Source of the DNA: a bacterium
Lineage (GTDB): Bacteria > Zhuqueibacterota > QNDG01 > JAFGCO01
Assembly: GCA_016932575.1 (NCBI GenBank)
Contig: JAFGCO010000002.1
Coordinates: forward strand, 80,625 to 144,624
DNA: 64,000 nucleotides
Direction: 5' to 3'
Shown here: positions 46,148 to 62,225 of the stretch, one piece after another
Numbering within the stretch: position 1 is the stretch's first letter
Layout of the letters: each line of letters opens with the position of its first letter
Position numbers and translations under genes: made by a program
The notes under the pieces: generated by a model
Databases searched by the model: none
Seen by the model: only the letters and a program-made list of their open reading frames with translations
What the model was told of the DNA's origin: nothing

Positions 46148-47245
46148 TCATCGAACAACCCGGGCGCTTCCTCCACTTACAATCCTCTCCACCTCAGAAA
46201 GCCTTGCCATAGTGGTATCTCCTGCTGTAGTCATTGCCAGCGCGCCATGCGCAGCGCCATATTCCACTGCTTTTTGAGCATCTCCGAATATCATCATTCC
46301 ATAAATAAATCCTGAGGCAAAACTGTCTCCGCCACCAACACGGTCCAATATTTCGAGTTCAGGTCGATATGTTGCCTGATAAAATTGACCATTATACCAG
46401 CAAACAGCTCCCCAGTCGTTGACTGTTGCGGTTTTCACACTCCTCAATGTGGTAGCCACTGCCCTGAAATTCGGATAAGCTTTTACGACTTTTTCGATCA
46501 TATGTTTAAAACTGTCTGTCTTTAACTCCGTTAGATTTTTATCAACACCCTTGACTTCAAATCCCAGACAAGCCGTAAAATCCTCTTCATTGCCAAGCAT
46601 CACATCCACATATTCGGCAATCTCCCGGTTGACTTCCTGTGCCTTCTTCTGCCCGCCTATGGATTTCCATAATGAAGGACGGTAATTTAAATCATAACTG
46701 ACAACGGTACCATACTTTTTTGCAGCTTTCATCGCCGCGATAATCACTTTTGGTGTGCCTTCTGAAAGTGCTGCATAAATTCCGCCTGTATGAAACCATT
46801 TTGTCCCTGTTTTACCAAAAATCTCATCCCAATCAAAATCATCGGCCTTCATCTGGCTTGCGGCGGTATGACCACGGTCCGAACATCCCAAAGCACCGCG
46901 TATTCCATAACCTCGCTCCGTGAAATTCAAGCCATTTCGGACATCCCTTCCAACACCATCATAAGGAATCCATCGTATAAATCGTGTATCCACACCACCC
47001 TGCAATATCAAATCTTCAAGCAGTTCTCCAACAGGATTTTTCGCAAATGCAGTCATAACTGCTGTTTTCATTCCAAAACAGCGTTTCAATCCGCGGGCGA
47101 CATTATATTCACCCCCACCTTCCCAGATTCTGAATTGCCTTGATGTATGGATGCGTCCTTCACCAGGATCCAGACGAAGCATAATCTCCCCCAATGAAAT
47201 CTCATCAAATGCACATTCAGACTCTGGCCTTATTGTTAATGACAT
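46148..47245 (-). CDS. kdgK: 2-keto-3-deoxygluconate kinase (PfkB family)
   Basis: 365 residues from ATG 47245 with GGAGGG upstream; a longer frame to 47356 would overlap larA and add a tail that does not fit the family. The N-terminal SLGEIMLRLDPG and the GGGEYNVARGL sugar-binding block fit KDG kinases. The phosphate-binding signature is DRVGGGDSFASG, with Gly for the usual Ala in GAGD and the catalytic Asp kept. It would make KDPG from KDG, the endpoint of hexuronate catabolism. It is the last gene of the minus-strand operon, 35 bp after larA. The aldolase KdgA is not in the window. Confidence 0.85.
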   Translation of the reverse strand: MSLTIRPESECAFDEISLGEIMLRLDPGEGRIHTSRQFRIWEGGGEYNVARGLKRCFGMKTAVMTAFAKNPVGELLEDLILQGGVDTRFIRWIPYDGVGRDVRNGLNFTERGYGIRGALGCSDRGHTAASQMKADDFDWDEIFGKTGTKWFHTGGIYAALSEGTPKVIIAAMKAAKKYGTVVSYDLNYRPSLWKSIGGQKKAQEVNREIAEYVDVMLGNEEDFTACLGFEVKGVDKNLTELKTDSFKHMIEKVVKAYPNFRAVATTLRSVKTATVNDWGAVCWYNGQFYQATYRPELEILDRVGGGDSFASGFIYGMMIFGDAQKAVEYGAAHGALAMTTAGDTTMARLSEVERIVSGGSARVVR

Positions 47246-47280
47246 GATATCACCCTCCAATAGACATGGTATATATGAGA

Positions 47281-48531
47281 TCACCTCTTCAGCCGATAAA
47301 GCATCTCTCCTGCTTTTTGCACATACAAATATCCTTCTGTTTCCCGGTTCATCCACTGTGCCGGATCAATTGAATCCGGATCGCGATATCCCAGATCAAT
47401 CAGTTCACACACTTCCCTGGAAATAGAGGTTGCCAAAGTCACCTGAATCCGGGGTGCTTCAATGCCGTTTCTGTATGTTCCAATCCCTTTCACATGCGTG
47501 GAATGGGCCAGTACGCCACCGGGAAAATTTTTAAACATGGACCATTGATTTAAAAAATAATCACGGACATGATAACCGATCTGTTTGATTTTGTCTCCAT
47601 GCGTAACAGATACTTCTGTTATATGGGGGGCGTAAATAATCACTTCTCCACCATCAGCCACCACAGGTTCCAGCTTATACATGCATTTGGCACCGGTCCA
47701 AAGGTCATCGTACATTTCTGGTGCGCATGATAAAACGCTTTTAAATGGATGCTCTTTCTCAACAATATGGAGCTTTTCAGAAAGATACGCTGCTTTTCTC
47801 CAGGCATCTTTTGAAGAGCCTGCGTATAATCCGGCAAGCTGATTTCCTTTCACCACAAGACTTATACAATGAACCGGAATATGCATAAATTCTGCAGAAC
47901 GATCAACAACCTGACGAACCGGCGTATCTGCTCTTCCGATGATTTCCATACTGGTAATCAGGGCGCCAAGCCAGTGGAACATATCAATAATTTCAGCACC
48001 TGAAATTCCGGGAAACAGATATTTATTCCCTCCTGAAAATCCGACAACTTCATGAGGAAATGTTGGACCAATAATGATGATTTGATCATAATCCATCACC
48101 ATTCGATTGATGGTCACGTTCACAGAATTGTTTAATAATCCACCGGAAATTTCCGACACATCCGATGCCTGTAACGTACCGATATGGATGAGCTGCTCCG
48201 GATCGTCCCAGTGATGGTTGAAAAATCGTGCCTTCGGATAATTGATTTTGCGTGCTTCCTGTGTTATCCCCATGCGTCTGTTGATCATGTCATCACTCAT
48301 AGGCGGGTGTGTGCCCAATGCGACAAGAAAATCCAGATGATTCATCTTTGGTGATAACAGTTCATAAATCACTCTGAACATCATATCAACAGGTGCTGTC
48401 CGGGTATGATCCGGAATAATAAATAACAGTCGCTGACCGTTTTCTAACAGCGCCTCGAACATTTCAGAGCAAATATTCCTGACTTCTTCTTCTGAAAGAA
48501 AACGGTCGCTATATCCTTTACCGATAAACAT
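47281..48531 (-). CDS. LarA-family nickel-pincer-nucleotide racemase/epimerase
   Basis: 416 residues of the lactate racemase (DUF2088) family. The key residues of LarA can be placed: Asp41 and Arg44 (DHTR), His75 (ALGTH), His160, Lys170 and His186. The 160-170-186 spacing equals that of His174, Lys184 (cofactor-linked) and His200 in Lactobacillus LarA. The enzyme should therefore carry the nickel-pincer nucleotide cofactor, made by LarB/C/E encoded elsewhere. Family members act on various alpha-hydroxy acids, including D-gluconate in at least one LarA homologue. Between 6-phosphogluconate dehydrogenase and KDG kinase, a 2-epimerisation of a sugar acid is more likely than lactate racemisation. 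This is inference from context. Confidence 0.82.
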   Translation of the reverse strand: MFIGKGYSDRFLSEEEVRNICSEMFEALLENGQRLLFIIPDHTRTAPVDMMFRVIYELLSPKMNHLDFLVALGTHPPMSDDMINRRMGITQEARKINYPKARFFNHHWDDPEQLIHIGTLQASDVSEISGGLLNNSVNVTINRMVMDYDQIIIIGPTFPHEVVGFSGGNKYLFPGISGAEIIDMFHWLGALITSMEIIGRADTPVRQVVDRSAEFMHIPVHCISLVVKGNQLAGLYAGSSKDAWRKAAYLSEKLHIVEKEHPFKSVLSCAPEMYDDLWTGAKCMYKLEPVVADGGEVIIYAPHITEVSVTHGDKIKQIGYHVRDYFLNQWSMFKNFPGGVLAHSTHVKGIGTYRNGIEAPRIQVTLATSISREVCELIDLGYRDPDSIDPAQWMNRETEGYLYVQKAGEMLYRLKR

Positions 48532-48747: not shown

Positions 48748-50199
48748 CTAGACAATATATGCACTCGAAGCTGTGTCTCCTCCATGTCCGGTCCAGTTGG
48801 TATGAAAAAATTCACCCCTCTGTTTATCGATCCTTTCATACATATGTGCACCAAAATAATCCCTCTGTGCCTGGAGCAGATTGGCAGGAAGCCGCTCGCT
48901 GCGATATCCATCATAATACGCAAGTGCGGCGCTTGTGGCCGGAACCGGTATGCCCAATTCAACAGCCGCCTTCACCATACGGCGCCATGCAGGTAATGCT
49001 TTGGTCACTTCTTCTTTGAAAAAGGGATCCAAAAGCAGATTGGTTAATGTGGGATTATGATCAAACGCTTCCTTAATCTTTCCTAAAAATATTGAACGAA
49101 TAATGCATCCCCCGCGCCACATCAGGGCAATACCGCCATAGTTCAGATTCCATTGATAATTTTCAGCAGCTGCCCGCATGAGCTGATACCCCTGTGCATA
49201 GCTGACGATTTTGGATGCATAGAGTGCCTGCTCCAAATCATTCACAAATTGGGATTGATCTCCTTCAAATTTTGATTCCGGTCCGATCAATTCCTTTGAA
49301 GCTGCCACACGTTCTTCTTTTAATGCAGACAGACAGCGTGCAAATACCGCCTCTCCGATTAATGTAAGCGGCTGTCCCAGATTCAGAGCCTCGACTGCAG
49401 TCCATTTCCCCGTTCCTTTCTGACCGGCCTTATCAAGAATCAAATCAATAACATAATTGCCATCTTTATCCTGATATGCAAGAATATCACGGGTAATTTC
49501 AATTAAATAGCTGTCCAGTTTGCCCTGATTCCATGCGGAAAATACCTGATGCATCTCATCATTGGACATACCGAGACCAAACTTCATCATCTGATAGATT
49601 TCTGTAATCATCTGCATATCACCGTACTCAATGCCATTATGAACCATTTTAACAAAATGGCCGGCTCCATTCTCGCCCACCCAGTCGCAGCATGGCTCTC
49701 CTTTTTCTGTTTTTGCCGAGATTGTCTGAAAAATGTTTTTCACATGAGGCCAGGCCTTCGGAGATCCACCGGGCATCATGGACGGTCCTTTCAGGGCGCC
49801 CTCTTCTCCGCCTGAAACACCGGTGCCTATGTAAAGCAACCCTTTGGATTCAACATACGCTGTTCTTCGAATTGTATCCGGAAAATGACTGTTGCCTCCG
49901 TCAATCAGAATATCGCCTTCCTCAAGATGCGGAATAATTTTTTCAATAAAATCGTCCACTGGTTTCCCCGCCTTGACCAGAAGCATGACTTTCCGGGGAC
50001 GTTTCAGGCTTGCCGTCAACTCTTCAATGGAATGGCATCCTTTGATGTTTTTCCCTTTGGCACGCCCCTCGACAAACCGGTCAACCTTTTCTACAGTACG
50101 ATTAAAAACAGCCACCGAGAATCCTTTGGACTCCATATTCATGACAAGATTCTCACCCATCACTGCCAGACCGATTAATCCGAAATCAAATTGACTCAT
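48748..50199 (-). CDS. gnd: 6-phosphogluconate dehydrogenase, decarboxylating
   Basis: 483 residues, the long dimeric form. The N-terminal nucleotide motif GLIGLAVMGENLVMN is followed by FNRT, whose Arg fits NADP recognition. The substrate-binding IGTGVSGGEEGA and the KMVHNGIEYGDMQ signature with catalytic Lys are intact, as is GQKGTGKWT near the middle. It oxidises 6-phosphogluconate to ribulose 5-phosphate. Placed inside a sugar-acid operon, it would handle a gluconate branch once a kinase phosphorylates it; no gluconate kinase is seen. The Thermotoga hexuronate cluster also contains a gene of this family next to uxaE, as far as I recall. Confidence 0.94.
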   Translation of the reverse strand: MSQFDFGLIGLAVMGENLVMNMESKGFSVAVFNRTVEKVDRFVEGRAKGKNIKGCHSIEELTASLKRPRKVMLLVKAGKPVDDFIEKIIPHLEEGDILIDGGNSHFPDTIRRTAYVESKGLLYIGTGVSGGEEGALKGPSMMPGGSPKAWPHVKNIFQTISAKTEKGEPCCDWVGENGAGHFVKMVHNGIEYGDMQMITEIYQMMKFGLGMSNDEMHQVFSAWNQGKLDSYLIEITRDILAYQDKDGNYVIDLILDKAGQKGTGKWTAVEALNLGQPLTLIGEAVFARCLSALKEERVAASKELIGPESKFEGDQSQFVNDLEQALYASKIVSYAQGYQLMRAAAENYQWNLNYGGIALMWRGGCIIRSIFLGKIKEAFDHNPTLTNLLLDPFFKEEVTKALPAWRRMVKAAVELGIPVPATSAALAYYDGYRSERLPANLLQAQRDYFGAHMYERIDKQRGEFFHTNWTGHGGDTASSAYIV

Positions 50200-50295: not shown

Positions 50296-51072
50296 TTAAA
50301 TTGTCATGGCGGTAAATCCGCCATCAATCCGGATCAGGGCACCTGTCACAAACGACGAAGCCTTTTCCGAAGCCAGCCATATAACCGCACCAACCAGTTC
50401 TTCCGGTTCTCCGAAGCGATTCATTGGCGTATGTCGCATGATATCATTGGTACGTTCTTCTGTCAGTAATTTTCGATTTTGCTCCGCAGGGAAAAAACCC
50501 GGAGCAATGGCATTCACACGAACGCCTTTCATTCCCCATTCCCTGGCCAGATTTTGCGTCAGATTATTTAAACCGGCTTTGCTGACAGCATAAGTAAAAA
50601 CGCGGGAAAGCGGCGGTCCGGAAGACGCAGATGAAATATTGATGATGCTCCCTGAACCCTGCTGTACCATCTGTTTACCAAAAATCTGGCACGCCATAAA
50701 AATACCTTTGAGATTCACCTGGATAATTTTATCCCATTCTTTTTCGGTAATTTCGAAAAACGGAGTCCCGGAATTAATTCCCGGAGCATTAATCAGAATA
50801 TCTGCTTTTCCCCATTTATTTAATATTTTATCCAAAACGTTTTCAAGATCGGATTTTTTCGAGACATCGGCCTCAAGAGCAAGGGTTTCAATACCCAGGG
50901 ATTCCATTGGCTTCGTTCTTTCTCTGGCATTTTCGCAATTCAAATCAACAATTGCCAAATTGGCTCCGGCCTTTGCCAGTCCATCTGCCATGGCACCGCC
51001 CAGGACTCCTCCCCCGCCAATGACAACGGCAACTTTGCCTGTCAATCCGAATTTTTCTTCAATATAACTCAT
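50296..51072 (-). CDS. SDR-family oxidoreductase, probable fructuronate reductase
   Basis: 258 residues. The cofactor motif is IGGGGVLGGAMADG, with Asp43 at the end of the second strand suggesting NAD over NADP. The catalytic set is Ser148/150 (ISSASS), Tyr161 and Lys165 (YAVSK). The GGGGVLGG start resembles Bacteroidota SDRs annotated as D-mannonate oxidoreductase. With UxaE next to it, reduction of fructuronate to mannonate is the best fit, replacing the long-chain UxuB. Gluconate 5-dehydrogenase activity is the main alternative. The gene starts 40 bp after uxaE. Confidence 0.78.
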   Translation of the reverse strand: MSYIEEKFGLTGKVAVVIGGGGVLGGAMADGLAKAGANLAIVDLNCENARERTKPMESLGIETLALEADVSKKSDLENVLDKILNKWGKADILINAPGINSGTPFFEITEKEWDKIIQVNLKGIFMACQIFGKQMVQQGSGSIINISSASSGPPLSRVFTYAVSKAGLNNLTQNLAREWGMKGVRVNAIAPGFFPAEQNRKLLTEERTNDIMRHTPMNRFGEPEELVGAVIWLASEKASSFVTGALIRIDGGFTAMTI

Positions 51073-51112: not shown

Positions 51113-52357
51113 TCAGTCAATAAACAGAGGTTTGATATGGCGCTTCAGAAGATTTTCAGTCACATGGCGGCTGACAACTTCCTGATTTTGATCCAATGCA
51201 TTTAAATACAGGTCTCCCTTTTCAGCCGCAACTTTGTAGGCAACATGGAGCAGCTGCCTGAAATGCATATTATATTCAGGATGGGTCTGATCATGCCGTA
51301 ATGCATCAGCGTATTGCCTGCCGCTCCACTGCTGTACATTGTCAGGATCCGGCAACCGCCCTGCATCAATATCAATGACAGTGAAGTAAGGCTTACAAAG
51401 TTCATCAAACCGCCCGAAGGCTGTTTGATAAATGTCTTTGGCAATCTGTAATCCTTCTCCACCGGATTCCGCAAGACCGATCAATTCCTCCAGCCATGAT
51501 GTTCCGGCAGTCTTTAAATGAACACCCGCCTGAAATTTGCGTATTGTGCGCCGGATGATTGGATAAAGCATGAATTTATCGCTGCCGGAATGGATACTGA
51601 GCTTTAACCGGGCCGGCAAACCAAAATGTTGAACCGCATGTTCAATAACAGCTATATCGGCTTCGAATTCTTCCGCAAATTTATCCGGATTGCCTACATA
51701 ATCCACGCCCTTGTTGAACCGGCCGCTGAATTTTGGTGCAATGGTCTGTACAGGAAGTTCCTCCGCGTGAATCATCGCCAGGATCAACAGCAATTCCTGG
51801 GGCGATTGCGGAGAATCAGTTTCATCCATGCTGACCTCAGTGACAAATGGTTCGGGCTTTCTTCCTTTTATATGGCGGTAAATCCTTCCGGCTTCCTGAA
51901 CAGCAAATAAATATTTTTCTGCCGTATGATACAAAAAATCCGAATCGATTTTTATTTTCTCAGTCAGATTTCTGATCGATAAATTCCCGATCAGGGATGA
52001 ATGCCTGTCCGCAAAGGCCTGAATGTCCGTCTGTTCTGCTTTTTCACCGATTGCATCGGCAACATCCATAGTGAAAAAATTACTGAAAGGAATAAAATCA
52101 TCAACAGTATTCATGTTGATATGATCCGCATCCACATAATATGCATCTTTCCATCCCAGGCTTTTTACAGAGCTGTCTGCTTCCATACGCACTGTTTCCG
52201 GTGTGGTACCGATAATTTGATGTTCCCGGAATGATTTGTTCCATACCGGCGCAATAAGGATTCCCTGTTCTCTGGCCAGTATCATGGCTTTCAGCTGGGC
52301 ATTTCCCTGTTTTCCGAAGCGATCCCCGATCCCCATCGATATTGTTTGCAGTTTCAA
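51113..52357 (-). CDS. uxaE: Tagaturonate/fructuronate 3-epimerase (UxaE family)
   Basis: 414 residues. The start is TTG at 52357 with AGGAGG seven bases upstream. I recognise the UxaE family by SMGIGDRFGKQGNAQLKA, YYVDADHINM, the VSMDETDSPQSPQELL block and KLSIHSGSDKF, whose Asp/His residues are candidates for metal and substrate binding. In Thermotoga this enzyme interconverts D-tagaturonate and D-fructuronate, so galacturonate can join the glucuronate branch without UxaA/UxaB. It sits between its regulator and the SDR that would act next. The isomerase UxaC is not in the window. Confidence 0.88.
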   Translation of the reverse strand: MKLQTISMGIGDRFGKQGNAQLKAMILAREQGILIAPVWNKSFREHQIIGTTPETVRMEADSSVKSLGWKDAYYVDADHINMNTVDDFIPFSNFFTMDVADAIGEKAEQTDIQAFADRHSSLIGNLSIRNLTEKIKIDSDFLYHTAEKYLFAVQEAGRIYRHIKGRKPEPFVTEVSMDETDSPQSPQELLLILAMIHAEELPVQTIAPKFSGRFNKGVDYVGNPDKFAEEFEADIAVIEHAVQHFGLPARLKLSIHSGSDKFMLYPIIRRTIRKFQAGVHLKTAGTSWLEELIGLAESGGEGLQIAKDIYQTAFGRFDELCKPYFTVIDIDAGRLPDPDNVQQWSGRQYADALRHDQTHPEYNMHFRQLLHVAYKVAAEKGDLYLNALDQNQEVVSRHVTENLLKRHIKPLFID

Positions 52358-52388: not shown

Positions 52389-53489
52389 CTAACTGATTGT
52401 TTGAACTCCGCATGAGTCTCTGATGATTAATTTCGGTTTTAATATTTTACGATGTACATATTCATGATTTTCAATCTGATGGTTCAGCATAAGCATTGTT
52501 TGTAAGGCGATTTCATCGGCAGGCTGCCGGATGGTCGTTAAAGTAACCGGAGGCGGCACATCAAATTCAACATCGTCAAATCCGATCAGCGCCACATCCT
52601 CCGGAATTTTCAATCCCGCTTCGGTTAACGCACGTTCAAAACCCAGAGCGGAATGATCGTTAAAAGCAAATATTCCGTCCGGCCTTTCATGCCGTTTTAA
52701 AAATTCTTTCCCGACCTGATAACCGGATTGAAAATCCTGACCGGGAGCTTCAAAATGAAATTCAAATGGGGACTGATAATCGATAGAATATGATTTTAAC
52801 GCTTTTATAAATCCTTTCCTCCGCAATTTTCCCAGAGGATTTCCACGCTCTGCATTCAGGAAACCGGGCTGTCTGCATCCGTACCGAATCAGAAATTCCG
52901 TAGCCAGAAATGCTCCTTGTTCATGATCGGTCCCCACATAATGAATCAATGGATCTTCCACATAAGATACCATAACGTAGGGAAAGCTGGATTTATGCAG
53001 TTCAAAAATCGAATCCGAAACCTGGTTTGTGTGTTCTGTCGAAGCGATAATCAGACCTTTTACTTCCAAATCCTGAAAATGACGGATTTGATCATCTTCC
53101 TTTTTTACATTGTCCGAAGAATAAGACACCAGAAGGCGATACCCAAAATCAACCACTCTGGATTCAATGTGGTGAAGAATTCCGGTAAAGAACGGATTGG
53201 AAAAATTTGTCAGTACAAACCCCAAATTCCCCGCAGTAGGAGGTGTGGCAAATTGTCCAGGATCCGCGACAAAGGTGCCTCTTCCCACCCGACCGTACAC
53301 GTATCCGTCGCGAATCAGATCGGCGATTGCATTCTTTACGGTGATTAAACTGACATCGTACGTTTTTGTTAATTCGGCATTGGATGGAAGCTGATCACCA
53401 GGATTTAAATATCCTGCCCCGATTTGACGTTTGATATCTTCAATAATCTGCTTATAGAGCGGTATTTGTTTTGTATGATCAATTGCCAA
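52389..53489 (-). CDS. GntR-type HTH / LacI-type sensor regulator of the hexuronate locus
   Basis: 366 residues. The start is TTG at 53489. The N-terminus is a GntR winged helix (PLYKQIIEDIKRQIGAGYL ... YDVSLITVKNAIADL). It is fused to a periplasmic-binding-protein-like sensor (GFVLTNFSNPFFTGIL ... PDGIFAFNDHSALGFERAL ... EDVALIGFDDVEFD). This is the AraR architecture. The dyad and tandem repeats at 53502-53544 cover its own promoter, so autorepression is likely, with a hexuronate or sugar-acid intermediate as inducer. It is the first gene of the minus-strand operon and is divergent from the symporter gene. Confidence 0.9.
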   Translation of the reverse strand: MAIDHTKQIPLYKQIIEDIKRQIGAGYLNPGDQLPSNAELTKTYDVSLITVKNAIADLIRDGYVYGRVGRGTFVADPGQFATPPTAGNLGFVLTNFSNPFFTGILHHIESRVVDFGYRLLVSYSSDNVKKEDDQIRHFQDLEVKGLIIASTEHTNQVSDSIFELHKSSFPYVMVSYVEDPLIHYVGTDHEQGAFLATEFLIRYGCRQPGFLNAERGNPLGKLRRKGFIKALKSYSIDYQSPFEFHFEAPGQDFQSGYQVGKEFLKRHERPDGIFAFNDHSALGFERALTEAGLKIPEDVALIGFDDVEFDVPPPVTLTTIRQPADEIALQTMLMLNHQIENHEYVHRKILKPKLIIRDSCGVQTIS

Positions 53490-53730: not shown

Positions 53731-55761
53731 ATGCAGTTCAGCATATTTGATATTCTGGTCTTCTTTGGTTTCATTGTCTGTGTGATCACTGTTGGAATTT
53801 TAAAAAGCCGGAAAGAAAAAACAGGTGAGGATTATTTTCTTGCAGGCCGCGGTCTGATGTGGTGGCTGATTGGTTTTTCATTGATCGCCGCCAACATTTC
53901 AACCGAACAATTTGTTGGAATGAGCGGCAATGCAGCCAGCCATGTGGGATTGGCCATTGCCAGTTATGAATGGATGGCCGCGATTACACTGGTTGTGGTT
54001 GCATTTGCATTTCTTCCCTATTTTCTGCGTGCAGGCATTTTCACCATGCCTGAATTTTTAGAGGTGCGGTATAACAGTGCCTCACGATCAATCATGGCCA
54101 TCGCAACGCTTTTTATTTATATGCTCCTTCTGGGTTCTGTGACATATTCCGGTGCGCTGACTATTCGAACTTTAGCCGGAAAAATGGGCTACAATGTTCC
54201 TTTAGGAATGGGCTCGCTGATTATTGGAATGATCGCCATGCTCTATGTGGCTGCCGGAGGTTTGAAAGCATGCGCCTGGGCGGATTTGATTCAAGGCAGC
54301 GCGCTGATTCTCGGCGGGGCAGTTATTCTTTATTTTGCTTTCAGCAAACTTGGTGCAGCCAATGAGGCTGCTCAAATCATCAATGTCAAAACGGGCGCAG
54401 TAACCCTGAAGTCCCTGCCTGCAAGCCAGGGAGCCTTGTCGCGCTTCTGGGAACTCAATAAAGTCCGTATGAACATGTTTCTCCCGGCGGATGATCCCAT
54501 TCTTCCATGGACGGCATTGCTGCTGGGCTTATGGATTCCCAATTTTTATTACTGGGGACTGAACCAATATATTACCCAGAGAACCCTGGGATCCGCTTCT
54601 CTGGCTGAAGGTCAAAAGGGTATTGTATTCGCTTCATTTCTTAAACTGATTATTCCCTTTGTCATCGTTGTTCCCGGAATTATCGCGTTTAATCTGTTTT
54701 CTGTGGATATGCAGAAAGAAGCCATTCGGGACAATACTACGGTGATGACGAAATACTACAAGGCCAATCCGGAAACACAGTGGATCAATGTTGTTGAATC
54801 TCCTGCAGATTCAGCCATTGCACAATGGCAGCCGGGCCGTTTTATGGTGGCCGTGTTTCATGATGAAGCGGATGTCGAAGTGCTGAAAACACATAATCCC
54901 TATGTTTTACCCATAACCAAATCCGAATTCACCAATATTCAAACCGCGGAATACACGGTTTTCTGCACAGATGACAAAGCCTGGAAAAGCGTGTTTCCCT
55001 CACTGGCAGAGGAAGTCAGTGCCTACAACGAACAAATTGAAGCATCTGCAGCGCATACCGGACAGCTCACGTCTACAGAGAAGTTTATTGCCTATAAATA
55101 CGATACTGCCATGGCCCAATTGCTGGGCAATGTGCTTCCTCAGGGAGTGGGACTGGTCGGCTTCGTTCTCGCGGCGCTTCTGGGTGCTGTGGTCAGTTCA
55201 CTGGCTGCCATGCTCAATGCGTCCTCAACCATTTTTACAATGGATATTTATAAAAAATATTTATCACCGGATGCCTCCCAGAAATCCATCGTATTCCTGG
55301 GCCGGATCTGTGTGGTCGGCTTTTCTCTGATTGCCATTTTCCTTGCTCCACAGCTGGGTAATCCCAAAATCAGTAACAGCATCTTCACCATTATCCAGGA
55401 AGGTCAGGGATTCATCTCGCCTGGTATTCTGGCTGTTTTCGCCTTTGGTTTGCTCATTCGAAAAGCGCCTCCGATTTCTGGTGTGATTGGTCTACTAACG
55501 AACATTGCCGCTTATGGTATACTGAAATGGACATTACCTGAAATTCAGTTTTTAAACCGCATGGCAATTTGTTTTGGATTGTGCATTGTGGTGATGGGGA
55601 TTGTATCTCTGATCAAACCTCTGGATCAGCCTGTACAATTCACGGCAAAAACCAAACTGAGCCTCAATTCGTCCCGAGGCGCACGCATCGCGGGATTCAT
55701 TGTGGTCGGATTGACCCTGATGCTTTATTTCCTGTTCAGTCCGGCGGGTTTATTGCGTTAA
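53731..55761 (+). CDS. Sodium/solute symporter (SSS/SGLT family) with extra soluble insertion
   Basis: 676 residues, longer than the usual ~500-550. The start ATG follows GGAAGGA. The N-terminal half is classical SGLT: DYFLAGRGLMWWLIGFSLIAANIS and TMPEFLEVRYN. Between about residues 330 and 455 a soluble stretch of roughly 120 residues interrupts the helices (FHDEADVEVLKTHNPYVL, VFCTDDKAWKSVFP). The pattern then resumes with GFVLAALLGAVVSSLAAMLNASSTIFTMDIY, which carries the expected sodium-site Ser residues. Uptake of a hexuronate or oligosaccharide product is inferred from the locus. Confidence 0.9.
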   Translation: MQFSIFDILVFFGFIVCVITVGILKSRKEKTGEDYFLAGRGLMWWLIGFSLIAANISTEQFVGMSGNAASHVGLAIASYEWMAAITLVVVAFAFLPYFLRAGIFTMPEFLEVRYNSASRSIMAIATLFIYMLLLGSVTYSGALTIRTLAGKMGYNVPLGMGSLIIGMIAMLYVAAGGLKACAWADLIQGSALILGGAVILYFAFSKLGAANEAAQIINVKTGAVTLKSLPASQGALSRFWELNKVRMNMFLPADDPILPWTALLLGLWIPNFYYWGLNQYITQRTLGSASLAEGQKGIVFASFLKLIIPFVIVVPGIIAFNLFSVDMQKEAIRDNTTVMTKYYKANPETQWINVVESPADSAIAQWQPGRFMVAVFHDEADVEVLKTHNPYVLPITKSEFTNIQTAEYTVFCTDDKAWKSVFPSLAEEVSAYNEQIEASAAHTGQLTSTEKFIAYKYDTAMAQLLGNVLPQGVGLVGFVLAALLGAVVSSLAAMLNASSTIFTMDIYKKYLSPDASQKSIVFLGRICVVGFSLIAIFLAPQLGNPKISNSIFTIIQEGQGFISPGILAVFAFGLLIRKAPPISGVIGLLTNIAAYGILKWTLPEIQFLNRMAICFGLCIVVMGIVSLIKPLDQPVQFTAKTKLSLNSSRGARIAGFIVVGLTLMLYFLFSPAGLLR

Positions 55762-55854: not shown

Positions 55855-55886
55855 GCACTGTCAGAAGGTTGGGGCAGTGCTTCTTT
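55855..55886 (+). terminator. Weak hairpin after the symporter gene
   Basis: The stem GCACTG / CAGTGC (55855-55860 and 55875-55880) is followed by TTCTTT. Six base pairs with a 14-base loop make it at best a partial terminator before the next gene at 55914. Confidence 0.3.
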
Positions 55887-55913
55887 ATGTCAGCGCTTTT
55901 AAGGAGCCGATTC

Positions 55914-56633
55914 ATGAAAAAAATCGTCAAAATGATCGTTTTTTGGGGTATCATCGGGCTTGTATGCGCCCTGTACTTCATTCAATGCACGCGATCCCCT
56001 GTCGAAAATTCTGAGTCAGAATCATTGAATAAAGCAACATCCGTTCAGGATACTATCATCCTCAGCAATTTTACTCTTACCTATGACAATGGCGGCGTTC
56101 TCATTGAATGGGGTATTGCTTTTGAAGAAAATGTCCTTGGATTTCATCTCTGGCGCTCTGAAGAAAACGATTCCTTCGGCATACGCATCAATCCCGCACT
56201 GATCCCGCTTGATGGAGCGTTGTCCTATCTTGATTTAACCGCATTGAACAATACTGGTTACTGCTATCAGCTCGAGGTGGTTTATCTCGATGGCGCCTCT
56301 GAAAAACTGGTCCATGCGGTTGCATGTATATCACCACCTGAAGTAGCCGAAAAAGAAGTATTACCGGCTTCTTTTGCACTCAGTCAAAATTATCCGAATC
56401 CGTTCAATTGCGTAACAACCATCCAATTCGTCCTGCCCACTACGGAATACGTTCAAATGACTGTTTATTCCATGGCCCGAAAGAAAGTCAGTATCCTGAT
56501 TGATGATCCGCTCTCAGCCGGATGTCATTGTGTCCGATTTGATGCGTCCGGTCTGGACGAAGGCATGTATTTATGCGAACTGAAGGCAGGCGGGGAAACC
56601 CGCGTCATTTCCATGCTCTATGTAAAGGATTAG
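55914..56633 (+). CDS. Lipoprotein-like secreted protein with type IX sorting domain
   Basis: 239 residues from ATG 55914 with AAGGAG upstream; an earlier ATG at 55869 lacks one. The export signal has a possible lipobox (YFIQC, Cys25). Residues ~40-140 look like a fibronectin III-type domain (FTLTYDNGGVLIEWGIAFEEN, GFHLWRSEEN). The last ~80 residues are a type IX C-terminal sorting domain (LSQNYPNPFN, later YSMARKKV, and GMYLCELKAGG). A lipobox together with a sorting domain is odd; one of the two signals may be unused. It may display a sugar-acid-locus surface protein; function unknown. Confidence 0.78.
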   Translation: MKKIVKMIVFWGIIGLVCALYFIQCTRSPVENSESESLNKATSVQDTIILSNFTLTYDNGGVLIEWGIAFEENVLGFHLWRSEENDSFGIRINPALIPLDGALSYLDLTALNNTGYCYQLEVVYLDGASEKLVHAVACISPPEVAEKEVLPASFALSQNYPNPFNCVTTIQFVLPTTEYVQMTVYSMARKKVSILIDDPLSAGCHCVRFDASGLDEGMYLCELKAGGETRVISMLYVKD

Positions 56634-56635
56634 CC

Positions 56636-57352
56636 ATGAAACCCCATTTCATTTCATTTTTTCTGTTATTCTGTTCCAGCGCTTTGATTTCTGCAGGCGC
56701 CGTATCCAAATCCTCAATGGAATTTCAGGCAGGCTTTACCTACATGCTTCTGGGAGATCTCAATCAAAGCATCAACATGCTTCAGGAATCCGGACTCAAG
56801 TACAATGAAATGCATTCTGGCGCTGATTTTCAGATTGTATACCGCCATCCCTATCAAAAACAAAAAGAGTTATTGTGTGGAGGCGGCTGCATAGTGGCTT
56901 TTGCAATTCCTGTTGTGAAAATCCCATGCATATCAGAAACATACGATGAACTGGGTACAATTAAAATGACACACTTTCTTTTATGTACAGATACTTATGC
57001 TCTCATTGGCGGAACCCGTTATTTCATCAAAGAAGAATCCCTGAAACTGGGAATCTCTTCAGCATTGACTCTGCATTGGGCCATGTTTCACGAATCCGGA
57101 AGCACTGAAAAGATATGCATGGGGGCCCTGTGCAAAACCTATGATTACAGTAATACAGCCCATGGATTCGGAATCGGCGGAGAAATCGCGATGCATCCGG
57201 TCATTTACCTGAATCCGACACTGCAATTATCTTCAGATATCGGCTTCCGATATGCCAATATCGGACACTTTCAGTCAGACTGGACAGGCAAGGATTTTTC
57301 ACTGAATTTTACGGGCACTTTTTTGCGTCTGGGCCTGTGTTGGCAGATATAA
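56636..57352 (+). CDS. Putative outer-membrane beta-barrel protein
   Basis: 238 residues from ATG 56636, two bases after the previous stop; an upstream in-frame start would overlap that gene. The signal peptide ends near LISAGAV. The remainder alternates hydrophobic and polar residues with repeated Gly and aromatic positions (GGEIAMHPVIYLNPTLQLSSDIGFRYA) and ends NFTGTFLRLGLCWQI, consistent with a small 8-stranded barrel. No family is recognised. It is tightly coupled to the sorting-domain lipoprotein, so both may work in surface capture of the locus's substrate. Confidence 0.6.
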   Translation: MKPHFISFFLLFCSSALISAGAVSKSSMEFQAGFTYMLLGDLNQSINMLQESGLKYNEMHSGADFQIVYRHPYQKQKELLCGGGCIVAFAIPVVKIPCISETYDELGTIKMTHFLLCTDTYALIGGTRYFIKEESLKLGISSALTLHWAMFHESGSTEKICMGALCKTYDYSNTAHGFGIGGEIAMHPVIYLNPTLQLSSDIGFRYANIGHFQSDWTGKDFSLNFTGTFLRLGLCWQI

Positions 57353-57416: not shown

Positions 57417-58412
57417 ATGATTATTGAACAACGGGCATTCGCACGTGCCGGGCTTTTGGGCAATCCGTCGGACGGATATTTCGGAAAAACCATTTCGATC
57501 ATTGTGCGTAATTTTGGTGCACATGTTTCCCTTTACGAATCCCCGGAACTGCATATTGAACCTCAGATTGAAGATATCAACGCTTACAGGAATATTTATC
57601 ATCTTGTCGAATCCGTACAGCAAACCGGGTATTACGGCGGGGCACGGCTTTTAAAAGCCGCCATTAAAACGTTTTTTGAATACTGCATATCCCGGGGGCA
57701 TAAATTCTCGCATAAAAACTTCACCATCCGTTACCGGTCCTCGATTCCCCGTCAGGTGGGTCTTGCGGGCTCCAGTGCCATTATTACCGCGGCCATGCGG
57801 GCTTTAATGCAGTTTTATCATATCCGGATTCCTCAGGAGATCCTGCCAAATATTGTGCTGGCTGCTGAAACAAATGAACTGGGTATTAATGCCGGCCTTC
57901 AGGATCGTGTGATTCAAACCTATGAAGGTTGTGTCTATATGAATTTTGACAAGTCTCTGATGGAATCACAGGGATATGGAGAATACGAACAGCTTGATCC
58001 GCGAAATTTGCCCAAACTGTTTATTGCCTATCGAACCGATCTGAGCAAGGTATCGGGCAAAGTCTTAAACACGGTGCGCGCCCGGTGGGAGAAAAAAGAT
58101 TCTGAAGTTATTGAAACACTGAACCGGATCGCAGACATTGCCGAGCAGGGGAAAAAAGCCATTAAAGACCGTGATTACAAACGCCTCCATGACCTGATGA
58201 ATGAAAACTTCGATTGCCGCTCAAAGATTATGACAATCACCGACAAAAACTGGGCTCTCGTGAATACAGCACGTCAATGCGGCGCATCTGCAAAATTTAC
58301 CGGAAGCGGCGGTTCGGTCATTGGAATTTACCAGGATGATTTAATGTTAAACAAACTGGCAGTTGAACTGAAAAAAGTGAATGCCCGGGTAATCAAACCG
58401 TATATTTCATAA
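57417..58412 (+). CDS. GHMP kinase resembling plant glucuronokinase
   Basis: 331 residues. GHMP motif 1 is ARAGLLGNPSDGYFGKTIS (residues 9-27), motif 2 PRQVGLAGSSAI (111-122) and motif 3 KFTGSGGSVIG near 300; Asp163 (LQDRV) is the likely catalytic base. The NPSDxYxGKTIS start, GYYGGARLL, NFTIRYRSSIPRQVGLAGSSA and ELGINAGLQDRVIQTYEG stretches resemble Arabidopsis glucuronokinase closely, as I recall it. That enzyme makes glucuronate 1-phosphate. galU starts 18 bp downstream, giving a plausible two-step route to UDP-glucuronate. The start is an ATG that overlaps no other gene. Other GHMP sugar-1-kinases remain possible. Confidence 0.8.
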   Translation: MIIEQRAFARAGLLGNPSDGYFGKTISIIVRNFGAHVSLYESPELHIEPQIEDINAYRNIYHLVESVQQTGYYGGARLLKAAIKTFFEYCISRGHKFSHKNFTIRYRSSIPRQVGLAGSSAIITAAMRALMQFYHIRIPQEILPNIVLAAETNELGINAGLQDRVIQTYEGCVYMNFDKSLMESQGYGEYEQLDPRNLPKLFIAYRTDLSKVSGKVLNTVRARWEKKDSEVIETLNRIADIAEQGKKAIKDRDYKRLHDLMNENFDCRSKIMTITDKNWALVNTARQCGASAKFTGSGGSVIGIYQDDLMLNKLAVELKKVNARVIKPYIS

Positions 58413-58430
58413 TTTGGGAGTGTTTAAAAT

Positions 58431-59306
58431 ATGGTGAAAAAAGCTGTGATTCCTGCTGCAGGACTGGGCACGCGATTTCTGCCGGCCACAAAAGTGCAGC
58501 CCAAAGAGATGCTGCCCATTATTGATACCCCTACCATTCAATATGTCGTTCAGGAGGCTGTGGACGCCGGTATTGAAGATATTCTGGTCATCACGGGAAA
58601 AGGGAAACGCGCCATCGAAGACCATTTTGACCGAAATTTTGAACTTGAAAATCATCTGGAAGATAAAGGCTCCGAAGCGGCTTATGCCGAAATCCGGCGT
58701 TTGGCCGATATGGCCAATATTCACTTCATCCGGCAAAAAGAAATGAATGGACTCGGTGATGCCATTGCCCAGGCACGCTGGCATACAGGAAGCGATCCCT
58801 TTGTTGTGCTTCTCGGAGACACGGTAATGAAATCTGTTATTCCCGTCACGCGCCAGTTGATCGATATCTATGAACAATATCAGTGTTCCATTCTTGGGGT
58901 TGAGACAGTGCCAAAAGAGAAGGTATCGCGATATGGCATACTCGGCGGAAATAAAATCAGTGAACATATTATGGAAGTCACCGAGCTGATTGAAAAACCG
59001 GATCCGAAAGAGGCACCTTCCAATTTTGCAGTTGCAGCCAGATATATTTTGACTCCTGAGATTTACAAGGCGATCGCTGAAACCCCCAGAGGCAAAAACA
59101 ACGAAATTCAGATCACCGATGCCCTGAAAATTTTAATGCAGCGTGAGAAAATCATTGCCTATAAATTTGAGGGAAAACGGTACGACATAGGCAATAAACT
59201 GGATTATTTAAAAACCACCATTGAATTTGCAATGGAAAGGAAAGAATTTTCCAAACCTCTGATGAAATTCATCAAGACTTTAAGCGGTAAAAGGTCCAAA
59301 TCATAA
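58431..59306 (+). CDS. galU: UTP-sugar-1-phosphate uridylyltransferase (GalU family)
   Basis: 291 residues, typical GalU length. The N-terminal PAAGLGTRFLPATKVQPKEML motif binds UTP, and VVLLGDTVMKSVIP holds the metal Asp. ELIEKPDPKEAPSNFAVAARYIL and GKRYDIGNKLDYL are conserved. GalU makes UDP-glucose from glucose 1-phosphate. Directly downstream of a glucuronokinase-like gene, it may instead or also accept glucuronate 1-phosphate. Sequence alone does not decide substrate choice. It starts 18 bp after the kinase and 26 bp before dctP. Confidence 0.92.
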   Translation: MVKKAVIPAAGLGTRFLPATKVQPKEMLPIIDTPTIQYVVQEAVDAGIEDILVITGKGKRAIEDHFDRNFELENHLEDKGSEAAYAEIRRLADMANIHFIRQKEMNGLGDAIAQARWHTGSDPFVVLLGDTVMKSVIPVTRQLIDIYEQYQCSILGVETVPKEKVSRYGILGGNKISEHIMEVTELIEKPDPKEAPSNFAVAARYILTPEIYKAIAETPRGKNNEIQITDALKILMQREKIIAYKFEGKRYDIGNKLDYLKTTIEFAMERKEFSKPLMKFIKTLSGKRSKS

Positions 59307-59332
59307 CAGACAGAAGACAAAGGAGATTGTTT

Positions 59333-60304
59333 ATGAAACGATTTTTCAGCATCCTTTTGTCACTGGGAATCATTTTTATATCCTGCCAGACCCGATCCCG
59401 GGTAACGGTGCTGAAGCTTGCTCATGCTCTGGATATTACGCATCCGGTGCATAAAGGCATGGTTGTCATGGCTGAAAAGCTTCAGGAAAAATCCGGGGGT
59501 AAAATGCAGGTGGATATATATCCCAGCGGACAATTGGGAAACGAACGTGAGCTGATCGAGATGCTTCAGATCGGCAGCCTTGCCATGACAAAAGTATCCA
59601 CTGCACCTTTGGAATCTTTCGTGCCCGAAATGAAAATTTTCGGTGTTCCCTATTTATTCCGTGATGAGGCACATCGATGGAAAGTGCTGAACGGTGAGAT
59701 TGGTAAAAAACTGCTTCTGGCAGGACAGAATTATCTGGTCCGGGGATTATGCTATTATGATGCCGGAAGCAGGAGTTTCTACACGAAAAATCAGCCGATC
59801 AGAACGCCTGATGATTTGAGTGGATTAAAAATACGCGTGATGAAAAGTATCACTTCAATGGAAATGGTAAAGAGTCTCGGCGGATCCGCGACACCTATCC
59901 CGTGGGGAGAACTGTATACGGCGCTTCAGCAAGGGGTTGTCGATGGAGCCGAAAACAATCCACCTAGTTTTCACCTCTCGCGCCATTATGAGGTATGCAA
60001 GTATTACAGTCTGGATGAGCACACATCGGTTCCTGATATTCTGCTGATGAGCAGGACTGTCTGGGAGCGCCTGACGCCCGAGGAACAAAAATGGCTCCAT
60101 GAAGCGGTGGATGAATCCATACCTGCGCAGAGACAGTTCTGGAAAGAAGCCGTGGATGAAGCACTGAAAGTCGTGCAGGAGGCAGACGTTCAGATCATCT
60201 ATCCGGATAAAACTCCGTTCCGGGAAAAAGTGAAATCCATGCACGAATCATACAAAGGAACACCGATTTACGATTTGATTCAAGAAATTAAAGCCATCGA
60301 ATAA
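59333..60304 (+). CDS. dctP: TRAP transporter solute-binding protein (DctP family)
   Basis: 323 residues from ATG 59333, seven bases after AGGAG; a TTG two codons earlier is less well placed. The lipobox IFISC (Cys18) predicts a membrane-anchored binding protein. The DctP fold is recognised by MQVDIYPSGQLGNERELIEML, the selectivity-Arg region LSGLKIRVMKS, and ALQQGVVDGAENNPPSF. The conserved Arg of LKIRVM would pair with a substrate carboxylate, so a sugar acid fits. It is the first gene of dctPQM and is likely in the same transcript as the glucuronokinase and galU genes. Confidence 0.93.
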   Translation: MKRFFSILLSLGIIFISCQTRSRVTVLKLAHALDITHPVHKGMVVMAEKLQEKSGGKMQVDIYPSGQLGNERELIEMLQIGSLAMTKVSTAPLESFVPEMKIFGVPYLFRDEAHRWKVLNGEIGKKLLLAGQNYLVRGLCYYDAGSRSFYTKNQPIRTPDDLSGLKIRVMKSITSMEMVKSLGGSATPIPWGELYTALQQGVVDGAENNPPSFHLSRHYEVCKYYSLDEHTSVPDILLMSRTVWERLTPEEQKWLHEAVDESIPAQRQFWKEAVDEALKVVQEADVQIIYPDKTPFREKVKSMHESYKGTPIYDLIQEIKAIE

Positions 60305-60318
60305 ATGAGGACAATCCC

Positions 60319-60831
60319 ATGTTAAAATTTATTGATATTGTCAACAAAGTTGTTTCAAAAATTTTGATTGTGCTGATGGCCGCCATTGTCCTTGATGTCA
60401 CCTGGCAGGTGGTCACCCGCTTTATTTTACGGAATCCCAGTTCATTTACCGAAGAACTGGCCGGTTTCTTATTAATCTGGATCGGCCTTTTAGGCGCGAG
60501 TCACGCGCTCTATACAAAATCACATCTGGGAATCGATATATTGACCTACAAACTCACAGGTGTCAAACGGCAGATTGTGGAAATGGCTGTTAATGCGTTT
60601 GTCTTTCTTTTCGCACTGTTTGTTATGGTCATCGGAGGATTAAAACTGGTAAACCTGACACTCAGGCTGAACCAAATATCGCCAGGCATAAAAATCCCCA
60701 TGGGGTATGTATATACGGTGCTCCCCATATCGGGAATACTCATGATGCTTTATGCGTTTGGATTTATTTTAAAAGCGATAAAAGGAGCCGATGAGGCATC
60801 GGCCAAGCATCAAATCAGCGCATTGGATTAA
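60319..60831 (+). CDS. dctQ: TRAP transporter small membrane subunit (DctQ)
   Basis: 170 residues and four predicted helices (ILIVLMAAIVLDVTWQVVTRF, FLLIWIGLLGASHALY, AVNAFVFLFALFVMVIGG and a final one). The FTEELAGFLLIWIGLLGA block is the family hallmark. It bridges the binding protein and the large subunit. It starts 14 bp after dctP. Confidence 0.93.
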   Translation: MLKFIDIVNKVVSKILIVLMAAIVLDVTWQVVTRFILRNPSSFTEELAGFLLIWIGLLGASHALYTKSHLGIDILTYKLTGVKRQIVEMAVNAFVFLFALFVMVIGGLKLVNLTLRLNQISPGIKIPMGYVYTVLPISGILMMLYAFGFILKAIKGADEASAKHQISALD

Positions 60832-60864
60832 ACATGAAATTCGAAAAATAAGGAGAGAGACCTC

Positions 60865-62160
60865 ATGGAACTTTCCGTGATTGTCCTGATAGTCAGCTTT
60901 GTTACACTTTTATTGCTGAGCGTGCCAATCGCGATTGCCATTGGTATTACAACCATACTCACTATGCTGTTTACAATTCCGCCGGATCCGGCCATTACCA
61001 CAGTTGCGCAGCAGATGGCCACTGGAATTAACAGTTTTGCCCTGCTCGCGATTCCATTTTTTATTCTTTCAGGATTGCTGATGGGCCGTGGCGGTATCGC
61101 CCGCCGTCTGGTGGATTTTGCGAAAGTGCTGGTTGGCATGTTTCCCGGTGGACTGGCCTATGTGAATGTACTTGCCTGTATGTTTTTCGGCGCCATTTCC
61201 GGATCGGCCGCTGCAGCCACCTCGGCGATCGGTGGCTTTATGGTTCCTATGATGAATAAAGAGGGATATGAAAAGAATTTCAACACGGCTGTCACGGTTA
61301 CCGGTGCCACTACCGGTCTTTTAATTCCACCCAGCAATGTATTGATCGTTTACTCGCTGGCAAGCGGAGGCGTTTCAATTGCCGCCCTGTTTATTGCAGG
61401 CTATCTGCCGGGCATTCTGGTGGGGCTGGGATTGATGGGCGTATGTGCTGTCGTGGCCTTAATTAAAAAATATCCGGTTGGCGAGCGGGTAGGCTTTGTC
61501 GATGCCCTTAAAAAACTTCTTGATGCAATTCCGAGTCTGCTGCTGATTGTCATCGTTATTGGCGGTATCATTGCCGGATATTTCACCGCAACCGAAGCCA
61601 GCGCTGTAGCAGTCCTGTATTCATTACTGCTTTCCGTACTGTTCTATCGTGAAGTAAAAATCAAACAATTACCCGAAATTCTGTTGAAAACTGTGGAAAC
61701 CACTGCAATCGTCATGTTGCTCATCGGCACATCCAAAGCCATGTCCTGGATTCTGTCCTATGAAAACATACCTCAAAACATAAGCGCGGCACTGATTGGT
61801 TTTTCAGAAAGCAAATTCGTCATTCTGCTGATGATCAATTTAATTCTGCTGATTGTAGGAACTTTTATGGACATGACCCCGGCGATTTTGATATTTACCC
61901 CCATTTTTTTACCGATTGTTACCCAATTGGGAATCACCCCTCTTCACTTCGGAATTGTCATGGTGCTGAACCTTTGCATCGGTCTGTGCACACCACCGGT
62001 CGGATCGGTTCTGTTCCTCGGCTGCAGCATCGGAAAAACCACCATTGCCAGAGTCACAAAATCCCTGCTGCCGTTTTATGCTGTCATGGTGGCGGCCCTG
62101 CTGCTGGTCACCTACATTCCATGGATCGCCGAAGTACTGCCCCGCGCATTCGGATACTGA
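60865..62160 (+). CDS. dctM: TRAP transporter large membrane subunit (DctM)
   Basis: 431 residues with about twelve helices. The sodium-coupled elevator core shows VLACMFFGAISGSAAAATSAIGGFMVPMM and TGATTGLLIPPSNVLIVYSLA; a second repeat contains GTFMDMTPAILIFTPIFLPI and LNLCIGLCTPPVGSVLFLG. A GGAG site precedes the ATG. It completes a DctPQM system that would import the locus substrate with sodium. A strong terminator follows. Confidence 0.95.
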   Translation: MELSVIVLIVSFVTLLLLSVPIAIAIGITTILTMLFTIPPDPAITTVAQQMATGINSFALLAIPFFILSGLLMGRGGIARRLVDFAKVLVGMFPGGLAYVNVLACMFFGAISGSAAAATSAIGGFMVPMMNKEGYEKNFNTAVTVTGATTGLLIPPSNVLIVYSLASGGVSIAALFIAGYLPGILVGLGLMGVCAVVALIKKYPVGERVGFVDALKKLLDAIPSLLLIVIVIGGIIAGYFTATEASAVAVLYSLLLSVLFYREVKIKQLPEILLKTVETTAIVMLLIGTSKAMSWILSYENIPQNISAALIGFSESKFVILLMINLILLIVGTFMDMTPAILIFTPIFLPIVTQLGITPLHFGIVMVLNLCIGLCTPPVGSVLFLGCSIGKTTIARVTKSLLPFYAVMVAALLLVTYIPWIAEVLPRAFGY

Positions 62161-62188
62161 TTCTAGAATTATTTGTTATGACATAATG

Positions 62189-62225
62189 ACCTTCAGAAGG
62201 CGGTTGCCCTTCTGAAGGTTTTTTT
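62189..62225 (+). terminator. Intrinsic terminator after dctM
   Basis: A 12-bp stem, ACCTTCAGAAGG / CCTTCTGAAGGT, with a seven-base loop is followed by T7. It ends the sugar-acid operon. Confidence 0.93.

Follow-up and report, generated by a model that had tools for sequence, protein, structure and literature searches.

The window, that is, the whole 64,000-nucleotide stretch of DNA that was analyzed, contains five genes on the forward strand that encode a GHMP kinase, a GalU-family uridylyltransferase, and a three-component TRAP importer, with short gaps between all of them (Table 1). According to the original prediction, the kinase gene lies 18 bp upstream of the galU gene, in a hexuronate locus with a TRAP importer. 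Open reading frames with an 18-bp gap between them were found at exactly the predicted coordinates, and the TRAP genes follow at 59327-62160. The neighborhood encodes UxaE, an SDR oxidoreductase, 6-phosphogluconate dehydrogenase, a LarA-like enzyme, a PfkB sugar kinase, a regulator, and an SSF symporter; it is a hexuronate locus, as had been claimed. The hairpin after the last TRAP gene is the strongest of eight terminator-like hairpins in the window, where the number of hairpins does not exceed that in shuffled sequences; its position fits a single kinase-GalU-TRAP transcription unit. No Rfam elements were found within the 64-kb window.

Table 1. Features of the kinase-GalU locus (positions in the window)
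Feature	Position	Strand	Basis
PfkB sugar kinase, KDG/KDGal kinase type	46148..47356	-	No equivalog over cut-off
LarA-like nickel-pincer enzyme	47281..48531	-	NF052594, 190.7 bits (cut-off 500)
6-Phosphogluconate dehydrogenase (Gnd)	48748..50199	-	TIGR00873, 765 bits
SDR, best NCBIfam match D-mannonate oxidoreductase	50296..51072	-	284.1 vs. cut-off 281
UxaE (tagaturonate epimerase family)	51113..52357	-	Pfam PF16257, 4e-54
GntR/LacI-type regulator	52389..53489	-	Pfam/NCBIfam
Sodium:solute symporter (SSF), 676 aa, second importer of the locus	53731..55761	+	Pfam/NCBIfam
GHMP kinase, glucuronokinase-like (331 aa)	57417..58412	+	ORF calls, Pfam, NCBIfam
GalU-family uridylyltransferase (291 aa), proposed UDP-glucuronate pyrophosphorylase	58431..59306	+	TIGR01099
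Codon of GalU Thr131, aligned with YngB Asp134	58821..58823	+	Alignment
TRAP solute-binding protein, uronate-type	59327..60304	+	PF03480; best solved matches 4x8r, 4n8y, 4n91
TRAP small membrane subunit	60319..60831	+	ORF; cluster kept beside kinase in other loci
TRAP large membrane subunit	60865..62160	+	ORF; cluster kept beside kinase in other loci
Terminator-like hairpin with a 13-pair stem followed by Ts	62188..62220	+	3' end of kinase-GalU-TRAP unit

The SSF symporter matches its family in two stretches, which suggests an insert of approximately 140 residues in the middle of the protein. The LarA-like protein is nearest to a putative hexonate epimerase family, far below the cut-off, and probably has a different LarA-type activity. 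Between the symporter and kinase genes there are two overlapping open reading frames, 55869-56633, with a weak match to a secretion-sorting tail (Por_Secre_tail) just below the cut-off, and 56573-57352, with no Pfam match.

The kinase is a member of the GHMP superfamily, since both Pfam domains, GHMP_kinases_N (PF00288) and GHMP_kinases_C (PF08544), score above their cut-offs. Its characteristic motifs are (i) the ATP loop GLAGSSA at residues 115-121, (ii) the sugar-side motif GNPSD at residues 15-19, and (iii) the base-region motif LQDR at residues 161-164. The catalytic positions R10, N16, D19, E151, and D163 show no variation among 43 kinase homologs, and R164 is almost invariant. In a profile search against GHMP subfamilies, proposed as a check of the original prediction, the protein scored far below every curated NCBIfam equivalog: the best match, mevalonate kinase, reached 76.8 bits (cut-off 163), HddA 39 bits (cut-off 600), and galactokinase 27.6 bits (cut-off 443). 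By sequence, the nearest solved structures are those of mevalonate and heptose kinases, which are only distantly related, and no plant or animal glucuronokinase was found among its PDB sequence matches. The AlphaFold2 model (pLDDT 90.8) is best superimposed on sugar-1-kinases, with Z-scores of 32.6 for galactokinase 1pie and 32.1 for heptokinase WcbL; mevalonate kinases score approximately one unit lower. Rather than grouping with heptose or galactose kinases, an outcome that would have spoken for a different function, the kinase forms a separate clade in a tree with the other GHMP kinases of its genome, which are of the heptose, galactose, and mevalonate types.

Long sequence blocks had been described as common to this protein and plant glucuronokinase. 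All four quoted blocks (NPSDGYFGKTIS, GYYGGARLL, IPRQVGLAGSSA, and LQDRV) are present in the kinase; the plant side is represented by a provisional, approximate version of the Arabidopsis glucuronokinase sequence. Its identity to the window kinase is 44% over 324 aa, and its identity to two relatives of that kinase, L071 and L065, is 47-48%. In the tree, this provisional sequence groups with the bacterial kinase clade with a support of 98/99, a value that applies to this query only. Of 20 positions at which the window kinase differs from the consensus of the bacterial family, the provisional sequence matches the consensus at 12 and the window kinase at 4; together with its greater similarity to L065 and L071, this suggests that it was not copied from the window kinase. 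The likeness to plant glucuronokinase, as it rests on the provisional sequence, is regarded here as a lead.

Comparison of genomes demonstrated that the kinase and GalU genes are paired beyond chance. Within the phylum of the window (KSB1-like; a relative at 82% identity carries the label candidate division KSB1), the kinase is present in 29 of the 82 sampled genomes. GalU above the TIGR01099 cut-off is present in 15, and in all 15 it abuts the kinase (Fisher's exact test, 8e-9, with the kinship of genomes ignored). No canonical GalU was found in those of the 82 genomes that lack the kinase. An even sample of 149 Bacteroidia genomes, with a GalU threshold of E <= 1e-60, yielded GalU in seven genomes, six of them with the kinase abutting; the kinase was likewise found in seven, with GalU beside it in six, and the seventh kinase is a partial gene. 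The window GalU is the only canonical GalU of its genome, and in 12 other genomes from the first contig scan the sole GalU over the cut-off is the neighbor of the kinase. A profile search in other bacteria revealed both gene orders, the kinase preceding GalU in L140, L142, and L147, and GalU preceding the kinase in L146, L151, L152, L154, L155, and L157. Some of these pairs overlap by a few bases, one pair is located on a plasmid of Rufibacter tibetensis, and in every linked locus examined the two proteins are encoded by separate open reading frames. The adjacency survey called for by the original prediction thus shows a conserved pairing, and its recurrence in both gene orders is strong evidence for a common function of the two enzymes.

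The second enzyme of the pair scores 375 bits with the GalU model TIGR01099 (cut-off 326.8). In the GalU-family protein YngB, Asp134, Gly172, Glu191, and Val204 contact glucose, and Asp133 holds Mg (PMC7961091). The equivalent of Asp134 in the Pseudomonas UDP-glucose pyrophosphorylase, D131, also contacts glucose, and the D131A mutant is almost inactive, whereas the Klebsiella enzyme has Val at this position and nevertheless handles UDP-glucose synthesis well (PMC11796359). The ordinary UDP-glucose pyrophosphorylases that have been tested show little activity with glucuronate-1-phosphate (PMC12203929). All 43 kinase-linked GalUs have Thr or Ser at the Asp134 position (Thr131 in the window protein), and a second, more distant nucleotidyltransferase encoded beside one pair has Thr. 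Of 12 other GalU-like sequences, nine have Asp at the same position, two have His, and one has Val. Like canonical GalU and YngB, the linked proteins retain the UTP- and Mg-site residues (YngB Gly110, Asp133, Glu191, and Lys192), and most of them also have Asp in place of His113 and a small residue at position 205. Replacement of the glucose-contacting Asp by Thr or Ser in kinase-linked GalUs, while the unlinked ones mostly keep Asp, is the new observation of this work. The linked GalUs largely form one clade, so that the count of 43 of 43 does not represent 43 events, but maybe one to three.

The absence of this Asp distinguishes the window GalU from the UDP-glucose type, although some true GalUs have Val and thus the distinction is not strict. 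By itself, the change from Asp to Thr is no proof of altered substrate specificity, because the Klebsiella enzyme, with Val, works on glucose. We propose that the loss of a negative charge beside the sugar would suit a substrate bearing a carboxylate. Alternatively, the GalU might be an ordinary UDP-glucose pyrophosphorylase that merely lies beside the kinase, whose product would go elsewhere. Passing the GalU equivalog cut-off, being the sole canonical GalU of the genome, and the existence of Klebsiella-type GalUs without Asp all agree with that explanation. We nevertheless consider it very unlikely in view of the uniform Thr/Ser at the sugar site and the strict neighbor relation across several phyla and in both gene orders; besides, UDP-glucose must be made otherwise in the phylum members that have neither the kinase nor a canonical GalU. 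On balance, the kinase-linked GalUs seem to constitute a distinct and widespread family of dedicated UDP-glucuronate pyrophosphorylases that is marked by Thr/Ser in place of Asp. Together with the kinase, they would form a bacterial salvage pathway that is present in many phyla, is sometimes plasmid-borne, and is annotated everywhere as a housekeeping GalU and a 'GHMP kinase'.

Some kinases have no GalU partner, which weakens the case for a dedicated pair. Approximately 13 phylum kinases that form a sub-branch (L074-L086, 47-54% identity) come from genomes with no canonical GalU, and their genes neighbor those for SfsA, nitroreductase, carbamoyltransferase, and MutY. The search for a partner nucleotidyltransferase of this branch found only distant paralogs of another type, with His at the Asp134 position in the readable ones. 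In the Aminicenantes locus L051, the kinase gene is accompanied by TRAP genes, and the GalU of that genome is encoded elsewhere and keeps Asp. A first scan of viral contigs gave no kinase match; a profile scan of IMG/VR revealed the kinase on two phage-like contigs, L138:5001-6020 (46% identity) and L139:3755-4741 (38%), neither of which has GalU near it. L138 also carries QueC/D/E-like genes, as identified by eye, and a second GHMP kinase.

Two other GalU-like proteins were observed in the genome of the window. The first one (L006:1228-3153, contig C18) is a 641-aa fusion of a galactokinase/mevalonate-kinase-like GHMP domain with a GalU-like domain in which His is aligned with Asp134; this protein may represent a further kinase-uridylyltransferase, of unspecified sugar. 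In relatives, GalU-like matches occur in similarly long open reading frames of 640-780 aa. The second one (L054:1498-2427, contig C62) is a 309-aa protein with a GDH motif, and its gene directly follows L054:29-1417, whose product carries an L-fucose isomerase C-terminal domain.

Genes for uronate utilization recur around the kinase. UxaC (glucuronate isomerase) is encoded beside the pair or in its vicinity in L063, L064, L065, and L066, UxaE in L037, L063, L065, and L067, and KduI in L067; TRAP genes are located near the kinase gene in the window and in L037, L051, L061, L067, L068, and L070. The TRAP binding protein of the window matches the DctP family (PF03480) at 1e-81, and its closest solved matches are 4x8r, 4n8y, and 4n91, of which 4n8y contains galacturonate and the other two contain glucuronate (PMC11668362, PMC7660916). 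Kinship with the binding proteins of the TRAP hexuronate importers Apre_1383, Bpro_3107, and STM3169 extends to the ligand positions, where Arg149, Arg170, Asn210, and Asp230 are kept, and uronate binding is predicted; in contrast to STM3169, the window protein has Ala-Leu in place of Asn35/Gln36. The structural model of this protein had a pLDDT of 41 and was left out of the analysis.

The same two enzymatic steps might physiologically serve D-galacturonate, or both uronates, and yield UDP-galacturonate. UxaC acts on both glucuronate and galacturonate, UxaE of the locus belongs to the tagaturonate epimerase family, and the second-best match of the TRAP binding protein is a galacturonate complex. 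The known plant galacturonokinase, however, belongs to a different branch, near galactokinase. Moreover, galacturonate is not accepted by the zebrafish glucuronokinase, which is reported to be a homolog of the Arabidopsis enzyme (PMC3938481). We regard a role in galacturonate salvage as possible but unlikely.

A distant kinase subfamily with 27-31% identity and the motif GNPTDGYGG is represented by L087, L151, L152, L154, L155, and L157; it is paired, in the reversed order, with a Ser-type GalU, and L087 has QDA in place of QDR. The pairs in L087 and L151 are placed among glycan genes and not among genes of uronate catabolism, and the structural neighbors of the window kinase include galactokinase, heptokinase, and fucokinase. 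Both facts would agree with a kinase acting on another sugar or sugar acid (heptose, fucose, or another aldose), in which case the pair would provide a different UDP-sugar for glycans. This appears highly improbable given the repeated linkage of the close kinase family to UxaC, UxaE, and TRAP genes, the separation of its clade from the heptose-type kinase of the genome, and, as a lead only, its strong likeness to the provisional plant glucuronokinase sequence.

We conclude that the pair is probably dedicated to the salvage of glucuronate via glucuronate-1-phosphate to UDP-glucuronate, judging from sequence kinship and gene context. In the proposed pathway, (i) the TRAP importer would bring the hexuronate into the cell, (ii) the GHMP kinase would phosphorylate D-glucuronate at O1 at the expense of ATP, and (iii) the GalU-family enzyme, with a sugar site that may accept the extra carboxylate owing to the change from Asp to Thr131, would convert glucuronate-1-phosphate and UTP to UDP-glucuronate and pyrophosphate. 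The remaining imported uronate would be burned via the divergent UxaE, SDR, and KDG-type genes, and the cell might thus choose freely between burning glucuronate and building with it. The original reading as a glucuronokinase-GalU salvage pathway is partly supported, by the separate kinase clade, the conserved adjacency to GalU and uronate genes, and the changed sugar site of GalU; its plant comparison stays with the provisional sequence.

To our knowledge, reports of a direct shortcut from glucuronate to UDP-glucuronate are confined to plants and some animals, and our search of the literature available without subscription found no bacterial glucuronokinase pathway. Plants combine glucuronokinase (GLCAK) with a broad-specificity UDP-sugar pyrophosphorylase (USP) of another family. 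The proposed bacterial pathway would proceed through the same intermediates with a GHMP-fold kinase, and in this respect its description as plant-style holds. The second enzyme departs from the plant scheme: its only Pfam matches are the NTP_transferase family PF00483 and PF12804, rather than the UDPGP type of plant USP, and the two genes are adjacent to each other and accompanied by a TRAP importer. Myo-inositol oxygenase, which would provide a plant-style feed, had no match in the genome of the window, in a search whose control matched nowhere.

The zebrafish protein DrGKUP, which has counterparts in relatives of zebrafish, is a fusion of glucuronokinase with a bacterial-type nucleotidyltransferase; its kinase is proven and strictly glucuronate-specific, its pyrophosphorylase produced only traces of UDP-glucuronate after 70 h, and its prokaryotic homologs were described as pyrophosphorylase only (PMC3938481). 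The bacterial pair comprises the same two protein types with the same proposed pathway, and its GalU is a closer counterpart of the GKUP N-terminal domain than of plant USP. Unlike in the animal protein, where the nucleotidyltransferase is N-terminal, the bacterial genes are separate and the kinase is usually first. The fucokinase/GDP-fucose pyrophosphorylase FKP of Bacteroides similarly combines a GHMP 1-kinase with a nucleotidyltransferase for salvage of a free sugar, but it is fused, forms a GDP product, and has 14-15% identity. The window pair would work like the plant and animal routes, but with a GalU-family partner encoded in an operon.

In bacteria, UDP-glucose dehydrogenase is the accepted source of UDP-glucuronate. 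The lack of this enzyme as a reason for salvage was considered and rejected, as a Ugd-like gene was found in the genome of the window. UDP-glucuronate therefore need not derive from salvage, which would be a second route. If the proposed function is correct, growth on uronates from algal or plant polysaccharides or mucus would be linked to the building of capsule and exopolysaccharide, bypassing glucose. A group of genes now annotated as 'GalU' would require reannotation, and a one-residue hypothesis for sugar-1-phosphate specificity would be available. The second step has barely been demonstrated with the animal fusion enzyme, so that the bacterial pair would make it directly testable, and the pair may also become a practical source of enzymes for UDP-glucuronate synthesis.
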